This document shows positions 32,292 through 38,801 of a DNA stretch of 64,000 bases, piece after piece. Position 1 is the stretch's first letter, and each line of letters starts with the position of its first letter. A program made the translations under genes and the position numbers. Source of the DNA: Anaerolineaceae bacterium (GTDB taxonomy: Bacteria > Chloroflexota > Anaerolineae > Anaerolineales > Anaerolineaceae); assembly GCA_016841445.1 (NCBI GenBank), contig JAENZD010000002.1, positions 186,001-250,000 on the forward strand, given 5' to 3'. Below the pieces are notes generated by a model. That model saw only the letters and a program-made list of their open reading frames with translations, was not told the origin of the DNA and searched no databases.

Positions 32292-32306
32292 TAAAATAAC
32301 AGCATG
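32292..32306 (+). promoter_or_regulatory. Leaderless-type -10 box of the alkyladenine glycosylase operon
   Basis: TAAAAT at 32292-32297, six bases before the ATG at 32304, without any Shine-Dalgarno. Same geometry as holB. Confidence 0.55.
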
Positions 32307-32897
32307 TCTGTGATCAAACGTCCATTTTATGATCGCCCTGCGCTGGAAGTCGCACGGGATTTATTAGGCTGCCGGTTGGTGCGAATGCAGAACGGTTCAC
32401 GGCTCGCTGGGTTGATCACGGAAACAGAAGCCTACCAGGGAGAAGAAGATCTTGGCTGCCATGCCTCAGCTGGGAAGACCTCACGCACATCGGTAATGTA
32501 CGGTCCACCCGGGCACGCTTATGTTTATTTTACATACGGGATGCACTGGCTCCTGAATGTTGTTACCAGTCCTGAAGAAACCCCTGCTGCGGTTTTGATC
32601 CGCGGCATCTTCCCGGTTGAGGGATTCCCCTTGTTGGTTCAAAACCGCCCTACCAACGCACAAAAGAAAGGTTGGACAGACGGTCCGGCGAAATTAACTC
32701 AGGCGCTCAAGGTCAATGGAGATTTCAATCAGGTTGATATGTGCAATACTGAAAACCAGTTGTGGATCGAAGCGGGAAAGAAGATTATTGATGAGCAGGT
32801 TGAGCAGACCGCGCGGGTTGGATTGAATTCAGTACCGGAGCCCTGGCGCTCAGTGCCGTGGCGTTTTGTGGTACATCCGGAGGTGTTCAATGCATAA
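32304..32897 (+). CDS. 3-methyladenine (alkyladenine) DNA glycosylase, AAG/MPG family
   Basis: A 197-residue AAG-type base-excision glycosylase. The conserved stretches ARDLLGCRL, ITETEAYQGEEDLGCHA (containing the catalytic Glu), SVMYGPPGHAYVYFTYG and GPAKLTQAL are present. It removes alkylated or deaminated purines. It is the first gene of a tight operon: the next start codon lies inside its last codons (eight-base overlap), a curious link between DNA repair and a 2-oxoacid dehydrogenase. Confidence 0.93.
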   Translation: MSVIKRPFYDRPALEVARDLLGCRLVRMQNGSRLAGLITETEAYQGEEDLGCHASAGKTSRTSVMYGPPGHAYVYFTYGMHWLLNVVTSPEETPAAVLIRGIFPVEGFPLLVQNRPTNAQKKGWTDGPAKLTQALKVNGDFNQVDMCNTENQLWIEAGKKIIDEQVEQTARVGLNSVPEPWRSVPWRFVVHPEVFNA

Positions 32898-33774
32898 GAA
32901 TGCCTCAATGTATGAAAAGCTTTATACCATCCGGCAGTTTGAAATCTTGCTGATTGAGAAATTCCCCACGGGAATATTTCCCGGCACCACCCATACCAGT
33001 TTGGGGCAGGAAGCCAACGCAGTTGGTGTTCTCTCACATTTGGATGCAGGCGATATCGTCGTCAGCAACCACCGTGGGCATGGGCATTTCCTGGCGTATG
33101 GAGGTGATCCCCGGGCGCTTTTCGCAGAGCTCATGGGCAAACCCAGCGGGGTTTGTGGTGGGATTGGCGGCTCGCAGCACCTTCACTGGCGCAACTTTTA
33201 CTCAAGCGGCATCCAGGGCGGAACTCTCGCGATGGCATCCGGGATGGCATTGGCCGAGAAGGAAGCTGGCTCACAAAATATTGTGGTGGACTTCATGGGA
33301 GATGGCACCCTGGGTGAGGGGATCGTGTACGAGTGTTTGAACATCATCTCGTTATGGGGTTTGCCAATCCTGATCGTGTTGGAAAATAATCACATTGCTC
33401 AAACCACACAAGTTGAGAAAGCGGTTGCCGGGAGCATTCCGGAACGCTTTGAGGCATTTGGATTGCCCGTAGAACATATCGATAGCAGTGATATCCTCGA
33501 GATTTCACCCCGGGCTGGACGGTTGATGGGTGAAGTCAGGGCACAAAAAGAGCCACGTGTTTTAATCATTGAGACCGCTCGTTTAGGCACACATTCCAAG
33601 GGGGATGACACACGCACACCGCAGGAAATTGAGCTCTTGTGGCAGGCGCGTGACCCGGTCGCTATCCAAGGAGCACGCCTGCTGAAGGAAGAGCGGGATA
33701 GGATCAATCTTCAGGTTGAAGAAAAACTGCAAAGCGCCTTAAAGTACGCCATGGAAAATGAGGAAGCAGCATGA
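32890..33774 (+). CDS. 2-oxoacid dehydrogenase E1 component, alpha subunit
   Basis: Thiamin-diphosphate-dependent E1 alpha, 294 residues, at the short end of the family. The ThDP motif begins at GDG 137-139 (GDGTLGEG) and ends at ENN 165-167; the HRGHGHFLAYGGD and GGIGGSQHL segments line the active site in this family. It would decarboxylate a 2-oxoacid and hand the acyl group to a lipoyl domain. The ATG at 32890 follows GGAGGT inside the glycosylase gene; the longer GTG start at 32866 is rejected. It overlaps the beta subunit gene by ATGA. Pyruvate, acetoin or a branched-chain 2-oxoacid are all possible substrates. Confidence 0.9.
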   Translation: MHKNASMYEKLYTIRQFEILLIEKFPTGIFPGTTHTSLGQEANAVGVLSHLDAGDIVVSNHRGHGHFLAYGGDPRALFAELMGKPSGVCGGIGGSQHLHWRNFYSSGIQGGTLAMASGMALAEKEAGSQNIVVDFMGDGTLGEGIVYECLNIISLWGLPILIVLENNHIAQTTQVEKAVAGSIPERFEAFGLPVEHIDSSDILEISPRAGRLMGEVRAQKEPRVLIIETARLGTHSKGDDTRTPQEIELLWQARDPVAIQGARLLKEERDRINLQVEEKLQSALKYAMENEEAA

Positions 33775-34814
33775 AAAGCGAAAAATCGCTCACCGTCCTC
33801 GATTCCCTTAACCTGGGGTTACAGCGCGCCTTCCAGGATGACATGCGGGCGATTCTTTTAGGAGAAGATATCCTGGATCCGTACGGCGGCGCGTTCAAAG
33901 TGACCAAAGGGCTTTCCACCCAATTTCCAGACCGTGTACTGACCACTCCAATCTCTGAAGCGGCGATCGCCGGGATTGCCGGTGGATTGGCACTGCGGGG
34001 CATGCATCCCGTGGCGGAGATCATGTTCGGTGATTTTAGCACCCTGATCGCTGACCAGGTCATCAATCATATCGCCAAGTTCAGCGAGGTCTATCAAACC
34101 GATACCCCCGTCGTGATCCGGACGCCGATGGGCGGCAGGCGCGGTTATGGACCAACCCACAGCCAGACCCTGGAAAAGCTCTTCCTTGGCATACCCGGGC
34201 TGACAGTGCTAGCACCATCCCACATTTTGGGAGAAAACGAGCTGGGTGGACCCGGCAAGCTCTTGTATGATGCGATTACAGACTTTAGCACTCCGGTGTT
34301 CTTTGTCGAGAATAAACTGCAGTACCTGTTGAAATTGCTAACGCTTGCTGATCTTGAGGAATTCGATGTCAGAACCTATGATATCCCTGGCAATTTGCGG
34401 TCTCCTATCACCCATTTTGCGATCCAATCCGCACCGAAAGCATCGCTGACCGTTACGGCATATGGTTATATGGCCCACCTGGCGCTGGAGGCCATGCATC
34501 AATTGGCTTATGAACATGAAATTTTCTGTGAACTTTTGGTTCCCACACGATTAGCGCCATTTGAACTTGAACCGCTGTTTGATTCTGTCAGCCGAACATC
34601 AAAGTTGCTGGCAGTGGAAGAAGGTACGCTCTCAATGGGATGGGGGGCAGAGGTGCTGGCCAGGACATCTGAAGCTCTGGGTGCTGGTTTGAAGATGACT
34701 TCACGCCTGGGGGCCAGGGAATCGGTCATCCCAGCAGCCCCTGACCTGGAATCCGGTTGTCTGCCCGGTGTGAAGGATATCATCACCCGGGTCAAGGAAA
34801 TGGTAGGAAAATAA
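33771..34814 (+). CDS. 2-oxoacid dehydrogenase E1 component, beta subunit
   Basis: Transketolase-like E1 beta, 347 residues. The ThDP-activating glutamate is E63 in TPISEAAIAGIAGGLALRG; RTPMGGRRGYGPTHSQT and the C-terminal VEEGTLSMGWGAEV are family hallmarks. With the alpha subunit it forms the alpha2beta2 decarboxylase. The start overlaps the E1 alpha stop (ATGA) and the stop overlaps the next start by one base (TAATG), so the three proteins are translationally coupled and presumably made in fixed proportion. No E3 (lipoamide dehydrogenase) gene lies in the window. Confidence 0.92.
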   Translation: MKSEKSLTVLDSLNLGLQRAFQDDMRAILLGEDILDPYGGAFKVTKGLSTQFPDRVLTTPISEAAIAGIAGGLALRGMHPVAEIMFGDFSTLIADQVINHIAKFSEVYQTDTPVVIRTPMGGRRGYGPTHSQTLEKLFLGIPGLTVLAPSHILGENELGGPGKLLYDAITDFSTPVFFVENKLQYLLKLLTLADLEEFDVRTYDIPGNLRSPITHFAIQSAPKASLTVTAYGYMAHLALEAMHQLAYEHEIFCELLVPTRLAPFELEPLFDSVSRTSKLLAVEEGTLSMGWGAEVLARTSEALGAGLKMTSRLGARESVIPAAPDLESGCLPGVKDIITRVKEMVGK

Positions 34815-35923
34815 TGGCAAAACTCTTCCCGATAAAAGTACCCTTGCTTAATCCCAACGAACCGGAAGCGCTGCTTTCCTCGCTGGAAGTGTTGGAAGGT
34901 GAAAAGGTGGATCAGGACCAGGGTATTGCAGTGATTGAGACGACCAAGTCGACAGGCGAAGTTTTAGCGCCAGATGAAGGTTTCCTGGTTGGGCTTCGTT
35001 TTAAAGTTGGGGATACGCTGCATGCTGGGGATGTTTTGGCTTATATTGGCGATACACCCGATGCGAAGGATCACACCCTTCCACCCTGGGCAAAAGTTGA
35101 AAAGCAATTACAGGAAAATCTTCAGCCTGAAGGGCTGCGGATCACTGCACCAGCCCGGGCATTGGCTGAAGAATTAGGCCTGAACCTGGATGACCTGCCG
35201 CGCGGTCCAATGGTCACCTCTGACATGGTGCGTGAGCAGCTTTCGAAGAAAACCGCTCGCAAAATCGCGCCGCCTCCTGCAGGAGAGAACCGCCTCGTGA
35301 TCTACGGTGTGGGCGGTCACGGCCGTTCCATCGCTGCCCTGGTTGAAAAACTGGGAAAGTATGATATTCACGGTTACCTGGATGACGGTTTTCGGGCTGG
35401 CGATGAAGTGATGGGGATGAAGGTCCTGGGCGGGCTCGAATACCTGCCAGACCTGGCTGAAAAAGGTATCAGGCTCGCAATCAACGGGATCGGTGGGATC
35501 AGCGATCCTTCTTCCCGATTAAATGTTTACGAACGCTTAGCATCTGCTGGATTTTACTGTCCATCAGTTATCCATCCAACAGCTTTCCTGGAAGACAGTG
35601 CTGAATTGGATGATGCGGTTCAGGTATTCCCATTTACCTACGTTGGCACCCATGTACAGGTAAGCTTTGGCTGCATTATCAACACAGGTGTGATCATCTC
35701 ACATGACTGCCAGCTTGCCCCGTATGTTAACCTTTCACCCGGTGCCACATTGGCAGGCGGTGTATCGGTGGGGGAAGGGACCTTGATCGGTATGCGTGCC
35801 ACGGTCAACCTCGGTGTGCAGGTAGGTCAGCAGGTGCGCATCGGGAACGGTGCAACCGTCAAATCGGATGTTCCTGATGGGGGTGTGGTTCCCGCAGGGA
35901 CGATCTGGCCGCCCAGGTATTAA
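34814..35923 (+). CDS. Lipoyl domain - E1/E3-binding domain - NeuD/PglD-type sugar acyltransferase fusion
   Basis: A 369-residue three-domain protein. Residues 1-82 are a lipoyl-carrier domain with the modified lysine expected at K45 (IETTKSTGEV). Residues 108-147 are a peripheral-subunit-binding domain (TAPARALAEELGLNLDDLPR and TSDMVREQL), as in E2 proteins. Instead of the E2 CAT core, residues 160-369 form a NeuD/PglD-like acyltransferase: nucleotide/sugar-binding N-part with IYGVGGHGRS (163-172), then left-handed beta-helix hexapeptides with the catalytic-type histidine H297 in ISHDCQLAPYVNLSPGATL. Known NeuD/PglD enzymes use acyl-CoA to acylate a sugar. Here acyl-lipoyl from the coupled E1 subunits could be the donor; that is inference. 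AGGA lies upstream of the ATG, which overlaps the E1 beta stop. Confidence 0.88.
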   Translation: MAKLFPIKVPLLNPNEPEALLSSLEVLEGEKVDQDQGIAVIETTKSTGEVLAPDEGFLVGLRFKVGDTLHAGDVLAYIGDTPDAKDHTLPPWAKVEKQLQENLQPEGLRITAPARALAEELGLNLDDLPRGPMVTSDMVREQLSKKTARKIAPPPAGENRLVIYGVGGHGRSIAALVEKLGKYDIHGYLDDGFRAGDEVMGMKVLGGLEYLPDLAEKGIRLAINGIGGISDPSSRLNVYERLASAGFYCPSVIHPTAFLEDSAELDDAVQVFPFTYVGTHVQVSFGCIINTGVIISHDCQLAPYVNLSPGATLAGGVSVGEGTLIGMRATVNLGVQVGQQVRIGNGATVKSDVPDGGVVPAGTIWPPRY

Positions 35924-35978: not shown

Positions 35979-36428
35979 ATGTTATTCGGAAAGAAGAAAT
36001 CTACCGCATCATTTACTCCCTCTGCCGCTGTTGAACGCGTGACGACCGTTTTGGGGCCTGGTATTAGCTGGAAGGGTGACCTGCGCGGCAAAGGCGGCGT
36101 CAGGATCGAAGGAGCTCTGGAAGGTGAAATTGCCGTCCGGGGGATGGTGATCGTAGGGGAAACAGGCCGGGTGACATGCGAAGTTGTCAAAGCCGATAGC
36201 GTTATTGTCGCTGGGGCAGTCAATGGCAAGATCCAGGCGGTGAAATTGGAGATCCGGTCGACGGGACGCGTCTACGGCGATGTGACCGTGCAGTCATTTG
36301 CTACTGAAGAAGGCGCATACTTGAGAGGACAGGTCACCATGGAAGAGCGCGTGGATCTTTCTGATCTACCGAGCCCCGCTAAAGAAAAGAATGTGGAAGC
36401 GCTGCAAGTGCAAAAGAGCGAGGAATAA
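35979..36428 (+). CDS. Bactofilin-family cytoskeletal protein
   Basis: A 149-residue bactofilin: a polymer-forming beta-helix core from about residue 20 to 125 with recurring GxVxGxVxA-type turns (VLGPGISWKGDLRGKGG, IEGALEGEIAVRG, ADSVIVAGAVNGKIQA, STGRVYGDV) and disordered tails. Bactofilins form non-nucleotide filaments that place cell-wall or polysaccharide enzymes. It follows the acyltransferase fusion by 55 bases and precedes proS by three, so it belongs to the same transcript; a role in localising envelope-sugar synthesis is conceivable. Confidence 0.92.
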   Translation: MLFGKKKSTASFTPSAAVERVTTVLGPGISWKGDLRGKGGVRIEGALEGEIAVRGMVIVGETGRVTCEVVKADSVIVAGAVNGKIQAVKLEIRSTGRVYGDVTVQSFATEEGAYLRGQVTMEERVDLSDLPSPAKEKNVEALQVQKSEE

Positions 36429-38234: not shown

Positions 38235-38801
38235 ATGAATACGAAATTTAATCAATTACGAAAGTCCATTCGATTAGAAAATTATAATTATTCGTGGGCG
38301 GGTTATTATTTTGTGACGGTTGTCAGCCATCAGAGGAAGAATATTTTCGGAAAAATTGGTGAAGGGAATGTGGAATTATTTCCAGCCGGGATGATTGTTG
38401 AAGAAGTACGGCAAGAAATTCCCTTACATTTTCCATATGTTGATGTTGATGCCTACGTCGTGATGCCTAACCATTTTCACGGCATCATAGTTATTCAAGA
38501 TATCGTTGGTGATATCGTAGAGGCAAGGCACGAAGTGTCGAGGTCACCAAGACAAGCTGAGCCCCTACCCCCTGAGCCAACAAAAATTCAACCTATAGGC
38601 ACCATTGTCGGTTCTTTCAAATCTGCTGTCACAAAACGAGTCCATGATTCAGGTCTGTATCTACAAGAAAAGATCTGGCAGCGGAATTATTACGAGCACG
38701 TCATCCATGATGAATGTGATTACCAAAAGGTGCACGAATATATTGAGGCAAACCCAATTAACTGGTCTCTTGATGAAGAAAATACCGAATTAAGAAAATG
38801 A
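38235..38801 (+). mobile_element. RAYT: REP-associated tyrosine transposase (IS200/Y1-like)
   Basis: A 188-residue single-strand transposase of the Y1/HUH family. The HUH motif is MPNHFHG (residues 77-83) and the catalytic tyrosine is in RNYYEHVI (Y152 or Y153); HEYIEANPINW is the usual C-terminal signature of the REP-associated group. Unlike an insertion sequence, no flanking ends or target-site duplications are evident. RAYTs are domesticated enzymes that disperse REP palindromes, and REP-like palindromes occur at 14485-14763. It sits between proS and a PyrK-like gene, whose ATG overlaps its stop (ATGA). The segment near residues 97-113 (38523-38573) is variable among relatives and is itself repeat-like. 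Confidence 0.85.

Follow-up and report, generated by a model that had tools for sequence, protein, structure and literature searches.

A lipoyl-armed PglD-type acyltransferase encoded behind E1 genes suggests acylation of bacterial sugars straight from keto acids

What does a protein do that begins like the E2 component of a 2-oxo acid dehydrogenase, ends like a sugar acyltransferase, and is encoded directly behind a pair of E1 genes? The question is raised by a 64,000-nucleotide stretch of Anaerolineaceae bacterium DNA (GenBank assembly GCA_016841445.1, contig JAENZD010000002.1, positions 186,001 to 250,000 of the forward strand), hereafter the window. An initial annotation of this stretch, made from the sequence alone, had proposed that E1 loads an acyl group on the lipoyl arm of the fusion protein and that the arm delivers it directly to a sugar. 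Our analysis supports this interpretation overall; direct delivery from arm to sugar is what we infer from the comparisons below. The three window genes probably specify a coenzyme A (CoA)-independent machine that acylates sugars from 2-oxo acids, and the spread of the operon suggests that sugars can be acylated straight from keto acids without CoA.

The fusion gene (34814-35923, plus strand; ATG at 34814, stop codon at 35921-35923) encodes 369 amino acids (aa), and its architecture was established with Pfam, NCBIfam, hhalign, AlphaFold and VIA-align. The open reading frame, the lipoyl domain with its lysine, the peripheral-subunit-binding domain (PSBD), the glycine motif, and the beta-helix with its HDC histidine were all found where the initial annotation had placed them. 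The lipoyl domain (aa 4-80; 34823-35053; PF00364) carries the presumed lipoylation site K45 (codon 34946-34948) within ETTKST, and this lysine is kept without exception in a 47-fusion alignment and in a set of 77 fusions besides that of the window. It is followed by the PSBD (aa 108-149; 35135-35260). Of the Pfam domains expected by the initial annotation, Biotin_lipoyl (residues 10-78), PglD_N (160-242), and Hexapep (316-350) exceeded the curated cut-offs, whereas E3_binding, the model for the PSBD, stayed below its own with the window protein alone (E = 0.11). A profile of 47 fusions nevertheless aligned with the four true E2s of the same genome over residues 3-149, covering the lipoyl domain and the PSBD (hhalign 99.2%, E 1e-19). 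No match to the PF00198 catalytic (CAT) domain, with its DHRxxDG motif, was found in the window fusion, and a PglD domain stands in its place.

That C-terminal part comprises a PglD N-terminal nucleotide-sugar domain (aa 160-242; 35291-35539; PF17836, E = 6e-12), with the glycine motif YGVGGHG at 163-169, and a left-handed beta-helix acyltransferase domain (about aa 251-358; 35564-35887) recognized by Hexapep, by TIGR03570, and by its PerB/PglB/PglD fold. The NCBIfam model NeuD_NnaD (TIGR03570) scored 179.4 bits over residues 160-359, with a cut-off of 160.8. We ruled out an ordinary NeuD with a spurious upstream extension, because the lysine is present in all 47 aligned fusions and the N-terminal half matches true E2s by profile. 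The AlphaFold model (mean predicted local distance difference test score [pLDDT] of 82.6) contains, at high confidence, the lipoyl barrel that the initial annotation required, with blocks at 88-98, and two PSBD helices (112-120 and 136-147; pLDDT 86-90, falling to 68 at 141-150), separated by a linker whose residues 97-101 score below 50. The PglD N-domain reached 80-97; the beta-helix began at 81-92 and dropped to 59-68 thereafter, which is unsurprising when a trimer is modelled as a single chain. In VIA-align comparisons, residues 1-85 resembled pyruvate dehydrogenase (PDH) lipoyl domains (Z about 12-13; 3crk at Z 12.7, 1.8 A), with biotin carriers at Z 11-12, and residues of about 157-365 resembled PerB, PglB-C, WeeI, VioB, Pcryo_0637, and PglD (Z 17-21, 2.2-3.3 A).

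The residues expected of a working active site are present. In the published description of Pcryo_0637, a PglD-like N-acetyltransferase, His142 is the likely base, the amide of Gly160 forms the oxyanion hole, and uridine diphosphate (UDP) is contacted by Asp40/41 and Ser11 (PMC8040287). H297, G315, and D190/D191 of the window fusion correspond to the histidine, the glycine, and the Asp pair by alignment and spacing. H297 (35702-35704; H297-D298-C299 forms the HDC motif), equivalent to PglD His125 and Pcryo_0637 His142, is conserved in 76 of the 77 other fusions and in all 39 standalone relatives; G315 (35756-35758), equivalent to Gly160 and 18 residues beyond the histidine, is conserved in 75 of the 77. 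The initial annotation had tied its reading to K45 and H297 being kept in homologues; in the fusions they are, and the lone fusion without H297 is also without E1.

The C-terminal turn differs. According to the same report on Pcryo_0637, a conserved proline in the last turn switches from trans to cis upon CoA binding (PMC8040287), and our reading of it together with the alignment places this proline, putatively, in the GxPAR-type motif of standalone PglD/NeuD proteins. The corresponding turn of the window fusion (35876-35920) is without the motif and ends in AGTIWPPRY. Of the 39 standalone relatives, 34 carry G-x-P-[AG]-[RK], as do 2 of 77 fusions (here including the window's and leaving out the cut row L219) and none of 25 arm-less orthologues; a looser set agreed (34 of 39 standalone, 1 of 100 fusions, the one being a spurious AVPAG, and 0 of 25 arm-less).

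The genes upstream encode a fitting partner. E1-alpha, a thiamine diphosphate (ThDP)-binding 2-oxo acid dehydrogenase subunit of 294 aa (32890-33774, plus strand), matched PF00676 at E 1.5e-42 and contains the GDG...NN motif; against TIGR03182 it scored 205 bits, below the cut-off of 393.85. E1-beta (347 aa; 33771-34814, plus strand) has the Pfam domains Transket_pyr and Transketolase_C. The nearest solved chains are the corresponding subunits of human PDH E1 (6cer), and the pair has what defines an alpha2beta2 E1: E1_dh, the transketolase pyrimidine and C domains, and the ThDP motif. With start codons picked by eye, the ATG of E1-beta at 33771 overlaps the end of E1-alpha by four bases and that of the fusion at 34814 overlaps the E1-beta stop codon by one; the translational coupling claimed earlier is thus borne out by overlapping genes. 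The E1-alpha ATG itself lies within the 3' end of the preceding gene (32304-32897), which looks by eye like a 3-methyladenine DNA glycosylase gene, and a bactofilin gene (35979-36428; PF04519) flanks the operon on the other side.

Could these E1 subunits serve an ordinary E2 instead, as the initial annotation had asked? The genome (3.35 Mb, 98.85% complete) encodes four CAT-type E2s, each with an E1-beta gene directly upstream and an E1-alpha gene adjoining, and the window pair is the fifth. No true E2 is co-located with the window pair; the four appear to own their E1s, and a co-located alternative partner was therefore ruled out in this genome, although one of them might still pair with the window subunits in trans. 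A stand-alone CAT-like protein of 268 aa with two PF00198 stretches is also encoded (G000:C3:1407377-1408069; L005/L006). A dihydrolipoamide dehydrogenase gene (TIGR01350, 568 bits; cut-off 408.8) lies behind one true E2, and three genes belong to the LplA/LipB family, so that both lipoylation and reoxidation of the arm would be possible in principle.

The arrangement is not peculiar to the window. When one genome per species was scanned with a five-fusion profile, 119 relatives emerged, of which the best 80 were analyzed; the patterns used included one containing ETTK[SA], and the lysine in these loci was thus partly selected. A NeuD-type fusion was present in 51 of the 80 loci (49 by blastp to both halves, L087 and L099 by full-length match), with E1 genes inside the fetched stretch for 48. 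The hosts were mostly Anaerolineae, joined by Mesorhizobium loti, Chromatium weissei, C. okenii, Hyphomicrobium, Rhodoferax, a Rhodospirillaceae, a Nitrospiria, a Desulfuromonadaceae, an Actinomycetes metagenome-assembled genome (MAG), and an unassigned MAG. A search of 398 genomes of Chromatium's phylum with a profile of clade B, one of two clades (A and B) of NeuD-type fusions, found six full-length fusions, each directly downstream of E1-beta. The recurrence of the order E1-alpha, E1-beta, fusion in dozens of genomes is far beyond chance. The initial annotation had called for a phylogenetic profile of the fusion beside E1 genes, and the operon indeed recurs in many Anaerolineae and in other phyla, a multi-phylum spread that it had not foreseen.

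A MAG chimera was ruled out by the presence of the operon in Mesorhizobium loti DSM 2626, Chromatium weissei DSM 5161, and Hyphomicrobium zavarzinii ATCC 27496. Separate origins of the fusions in clades A and B are not claimed: a first NeuD tree placed clade B among standalone NeuDs, but a tree uniting all fusions in one clade scored better and was not rejected (approximately unbiased test, p 0.734). A genome scan with the single window protein (310 stretches) and an IMG/VR viral scan (45 stretches) yielded no relative, and in a plasmid search none of 69 records covered 80% of the query. The locus sets used here and below overlap in part (L049 = G243, L053 = G263), and the two Chromatium okenii loci (L094 and L095) are one genome.

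Arm and E1 are linked by relatives that have lost both. Within the window's order, 147 of 301 genomes matched at 1e-20, and 80 fetched regions together with 6 earlier ones gave 86 loci, which, like those of the search of Chromatium's phylum, were selected by whole protein or profile. L186, at a contig cut, was left out of the comparison of lysine and E1, and L225, at a contig end, was not assessable. Of 60 loci with the lipoyl lysine, 59 are assessable, and 58 of these have an upstream E1 on the same strand (both subunits in 54, a single subunit within the stretch in 4); the 25 orthologues that lack the lysine are all without E1 at the locus. By tblastn, 22 of these 25 have no lipoyl domain, including 5 of the 22 PglD-only rows with a stray lysine in the K45 column, which were counted as lysine-less. 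The other three (L042, L174, and L180, from genomes G271, G575, and G553 of one genus) keep a decayed lipoyl-like domain, recognized by tblastn in two and by eye in L042, in which the lysine is replaced in the alignment by H, R, and T; they have no E1, and no PSBD was visible by eye.

Nor does a matching E1 appear to reside elsewhere. A genome-wide search for E1-beta of this type in the 25 lysine-less genomes and G301, some of them only 68-90% complete, gave a best identity of 41%, versus 56-66% in three positive controls. In a NeuD tree, built and counted after merging rows with identical first 150 residues, the 25 lysine-less forms nest inside the fusions, and the arm was therefore lost secondarily, at least twice. 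This joint loss of E1, lipoyl lysine, and PSBD also goes beyond what the initial annotation had anticipated. The bactofilin and glycosylase neighbours of the window operon both occur in 12 of the 25 arm-less loci, and bactofilin in 20.

The E1-beta proteins of these operons form one clade (Shimodaira-Hasegawa-like approximate likelihood-ratio test, 100), apart from the canonical E1-beta proteins of the window genome and of mycobacteria; one CAT-linked row from Gastranaerophilales, on a long branch, falls inside it. A second architecture also accompanies this E1 clade: a lipoyl domain and a PSBD-like domain are joined to another kind of beta-helix, which is WcaF-like although its match (E 8e-14) fell below the cut-off. 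Its hosts are Gaiellaceae, further Actinomycetota, and a single genome from Chromatium's phylum, where it sits in a NeuB/NeuC cluster. The structure model of this second type has a mean pLDDT of 60.1, its beta-helix mostly scoring below 55. Loci of this second type are L118:6610-8169, L106, L107, L113, L114, L124, L084:9012-10607, and L289:3995-6217, and L084 encodes one fusion of each type, the two adjoining. In L253, L254, L257, L290, L292, and L293 a single polypeptide comprises both E1 subunits, and some Anaerolineae loci (e.g., L058 and L064) have one long frame matching both subunits. With somewhat less assurance than for the window genes themselves, we lean toward a class of 2-oxo acid dehydrogenase that never makes acyl-CoA, in which an E1 clade spread over five bacterial phyla has had its CAT partner replaced at least twice by surface-glycan acyltransferases, of PglD and WcaF-like types, that would channel acyl groups from keto acid to sugar.

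On the acceptor side, we surveyed 86 deduplicated fusion loci (distinct from the 86 order-level loci) by blastp to one representative of each gene type; profiles for the sugar genes were run only on representatives from L059 and on Mesorhizobium. A DegT/DnrJ-type sugar aminotransferase was found in 26 of the 86, in 15 of them starting no more than 1.5 kb downstream of the start of the PglD domain, and a bacterial sugar-phosphate transferase in 25, in 24 of them upstream on the same strand. Both of these genes, which a bacillosamine-type (pgl) cluster combines with an acetyltransferase gene, occur in 11 loci, and only one of them in 29. The aminotransferases are nearest PseC and LegC, below the NCBIfam cut-off. 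In Mesorhizobium loti, genes for polysaccharide export, a sugar transferase, a PIG-L deacetylase, and DegT/DnrJ come, in that order, before E1-alpha, E1-beta, and the fusion. Judging from gene content, the fusion stands where PglD would in the amino-sugar clusters of some genomes, though not in the window, and these neighbours support an amino sugar as the likely acceptor. The Nitrospiria operon follows genes for a nucleotidyl transferase, a dehydratase-type short-chain dehydrogenase/reductase (SDR), a C-methyltransferase, and a 3,5-epimerase, and the Rhodoferax locus has a C-methyltransferase of the same kind. Near both of these clade-B operons (L091 and L108) lie flagellin-like genes, recognized by eye, and such a setting suggests flagellin glycosylation islands. 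Farther along the window, a 188-aa open reading frame (38235-38801) resembles, by eye, a transposase of the REP-associated tyrosine type, with an HFHGI motif.

A model of the machine can be proposed from these data. E1-alpha/beta, with ThDP, would decarboxylate a 2-oxo acid and reductively acylate the lipoyl arm that we presume is attached to K45 of the fusion. Within the same predicted trimer, the arm would then swing to a PglD-type active site, where H297 would deprotonate the amino group of a nucleotide-linked amino sugar and the acyl group would move from the dihydrolipoyl sulfur to the sugar amine, with G315 as the oxyanion hole. E3 (or E1) would dock on the PSBD, and the arm would be returned to its oxidized state by a dihydrolipoamide dehydrogenase whose gene lies elsewhere. 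The reaction would yield an N-acylated nucleotide sugar destined for a surface glycan.

Several observations weigh against this model. L193 (genome G301) encodes a lysine-bearing fusion with no such E1 anywhere in the genome; its H297 is replaced by Q, a change suggestive of decay. The independent events behind the coupled loss are few (two changes of the lysine and three of E1, giving one to three independent pairs), and no sign test can therefore be significant. Three of the 51 NeuD-type loci (L082, L083, and L089) are without an adjoining E1, an E1-beta of matching type (49-57% identical) being encoded elsewhere in the genome, and L084, counted among the 48, has its sole E1 on the opposite strand, behind the second-type fusion. 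The UDP-binding Asp pair is not universal (D190 in 74 and D191 in 67 of 77), D191 varying outside clade A. Neither sugar gene occurs in 46 of the 86 surveyed neighbourhoods, and neither adjoins the window operon; clade B lies beside other sugar genes, and acceptors therefore differ. Two fusions (L087 and L255) keep GVPGR at the C-terminal turn and the second enzyme type keeps GVPAK, while the 25 arm-less orthologues, all without GxPAR, all retain H297 and G315, which weakens loss of GxPAR as proof of a lipoyl donor. Lastly, at five loci E1s of this clade accompany ordinary lipoyl-CAT E2s (the CAT domain being confirmed by Pfam for L290 and L292 and recognized by resemblance for L291, L293, and L294), and these E1s are not one branch among the fusion partners. 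We therefore dropped the idea that this E1 clade is reserved for glycan enzymes; with CAT partners and two fusion types in one clade, catalytic cores must have been exchanged more than once.

Some of this would fit a protein whose beta-helix still uses acyl-CoA. The arm's acyl group would be handed to CoA by the fusion itself or by a canonical E2 acting in trans, PglD-style acylation of the sugar would follow, and physical fusion would do no more than raise local concentration. PerB, PglB-C, PglD, and Pcryo_0637 have all been solved with CoA or acetyl-CoA, the retained GVPAK and GVPGR turns and the E1s that serve CAT E2s point the same way, and the lysine-less orthologues still carry the acyltransferase. 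The fusion, however, is without a CAT domain, 75 of 77 fusions have lost the CoA-responsive turn, and a CoA relay has no need of physical fusion. We regard this alternative as unlikely, though it is the strongest of those considered.

Alternatively, the E1 pair could act as a ketolase that adds a two-carbon unit to a keto sugar, yielding a branched sugar, with the lipoyl part a docking relic. E1-like pairs act on sugars without lipoyl in antibiotic octose and other natural-product pathways (our literature search found no paper on them), and the clade-B cluster with its dehydratase-type SDR, C-methyltransferase, and epimerase would suit such chemistry. Yet a relic would hardly retain its lysine in every fusion examined and lack it where E1 is missing, nor keep the PSBD, and the lipoyl-CAT E2 partners in the E1 clade are presumably acylated on lipoyl by their E1s; we consider the ketolase quite improbable. 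Slightly less plausible again is a regulatory or scaffold protein like the E3-binding protein X, whose two halves exchange no acyl group: a lipoyl domain and PSBD without an active CAT fit such scaffolds, but the catalytic residues of the acyltransferase are kept, acceptor-side genes adjoin part of the relatives, and no co-located CAT core is left for the window E1s to work on. That the N-terminal domain is biotinylated and carries something else deserves hardly any credence, for although Foldseek and VIA-align rank biotin carriers close behind lipoyl domains, the PSBD and neighbouring E1 genes are of E2 type and profile comparisons place the N-terminal part closest to E2 components.

If the proposed keto acid-to-sugar route is true, its implications reach beyond this locus. 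To our knowledge, every known 2-oxo acid dehydrogenase complex gives its acyl group to CoA; a version passing it directly to a sugar would add a new branch to a multienzyme machine that is among the most ancient and, with the transfer confirmed, would constitute a new class of 2-oxo acid dehydrogenase complex. It would explain E1 genes in surface-glycan clusters and predict new N-acyl sugars, and unusual N-acyl groups of bacterial glycans could come by the E1 route, their chemistry set by E1. The proposal is directly testable, with three small soluble proteins, a defined lysine and histidine, and natural arm-less mutants. No description of such a fusion was found among the matches listed in the open PubMed Central literature, as judged by titles and the starts of abstracts.

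Four known systems bear comparison. E2 dihydrolipoyl acyltransferases (PF00364-PF02817-PF00198) share the lipoyl domain, linkers, and PSBD, in the same order and downstream of E1-alpha and E1-beta, but their PF00198 core, which transfers acyl to CoA and builds the large core of the complex, is replaced in the fusion by a sugar acyltransferase. The lipoyl-alpha/beta-hydrolase E2 of acetoin dehydrogenase (NF011457) likewise joins a lipoyl domain to a non-CAT C-terminal domain; it was matched by the lipoyl part only, below cut-off, and it has another catalytic fold and is not a sugar enzyme. LpxA and LpxD are, like the fusion, beta-helix UDP-sugar acyltransferases, and they appeared among the fold matches as 4ihg/4ihf. 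They take their acyl group from a protein-bound carrier, the acyl carrier protein, and thus show that beta-helix sugar acyltransferases can use a protein carrier, although theirs is separate, is loaded by fatty acid synthesis, and involves neither lipoyl nor E1. PglD, NeuD, PerB, and VioB, among them C. jejuni PglD, C. crescentus PerB, and the C-terminal domain of N. gonorrhoeae PglB, share the two-domain fold, the UDP Asp pair, the catalytic histidine, and the oxyanion glycine, as well as aminotransferase and sugar-phosphate transferase neighbours in part of the fusion relatives. Characterized PglD/NeuD members, however, take acetyl from acetyl-CoA, whereas the fusion has a lipoyl arm, a PSBD, an E1 operon, and no CoA-responsive GxPAR turn. 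As it has neither the CAT core nor the CoA turn, we class the fusion as neither an E2 nor a PglD but as a new combination of both.

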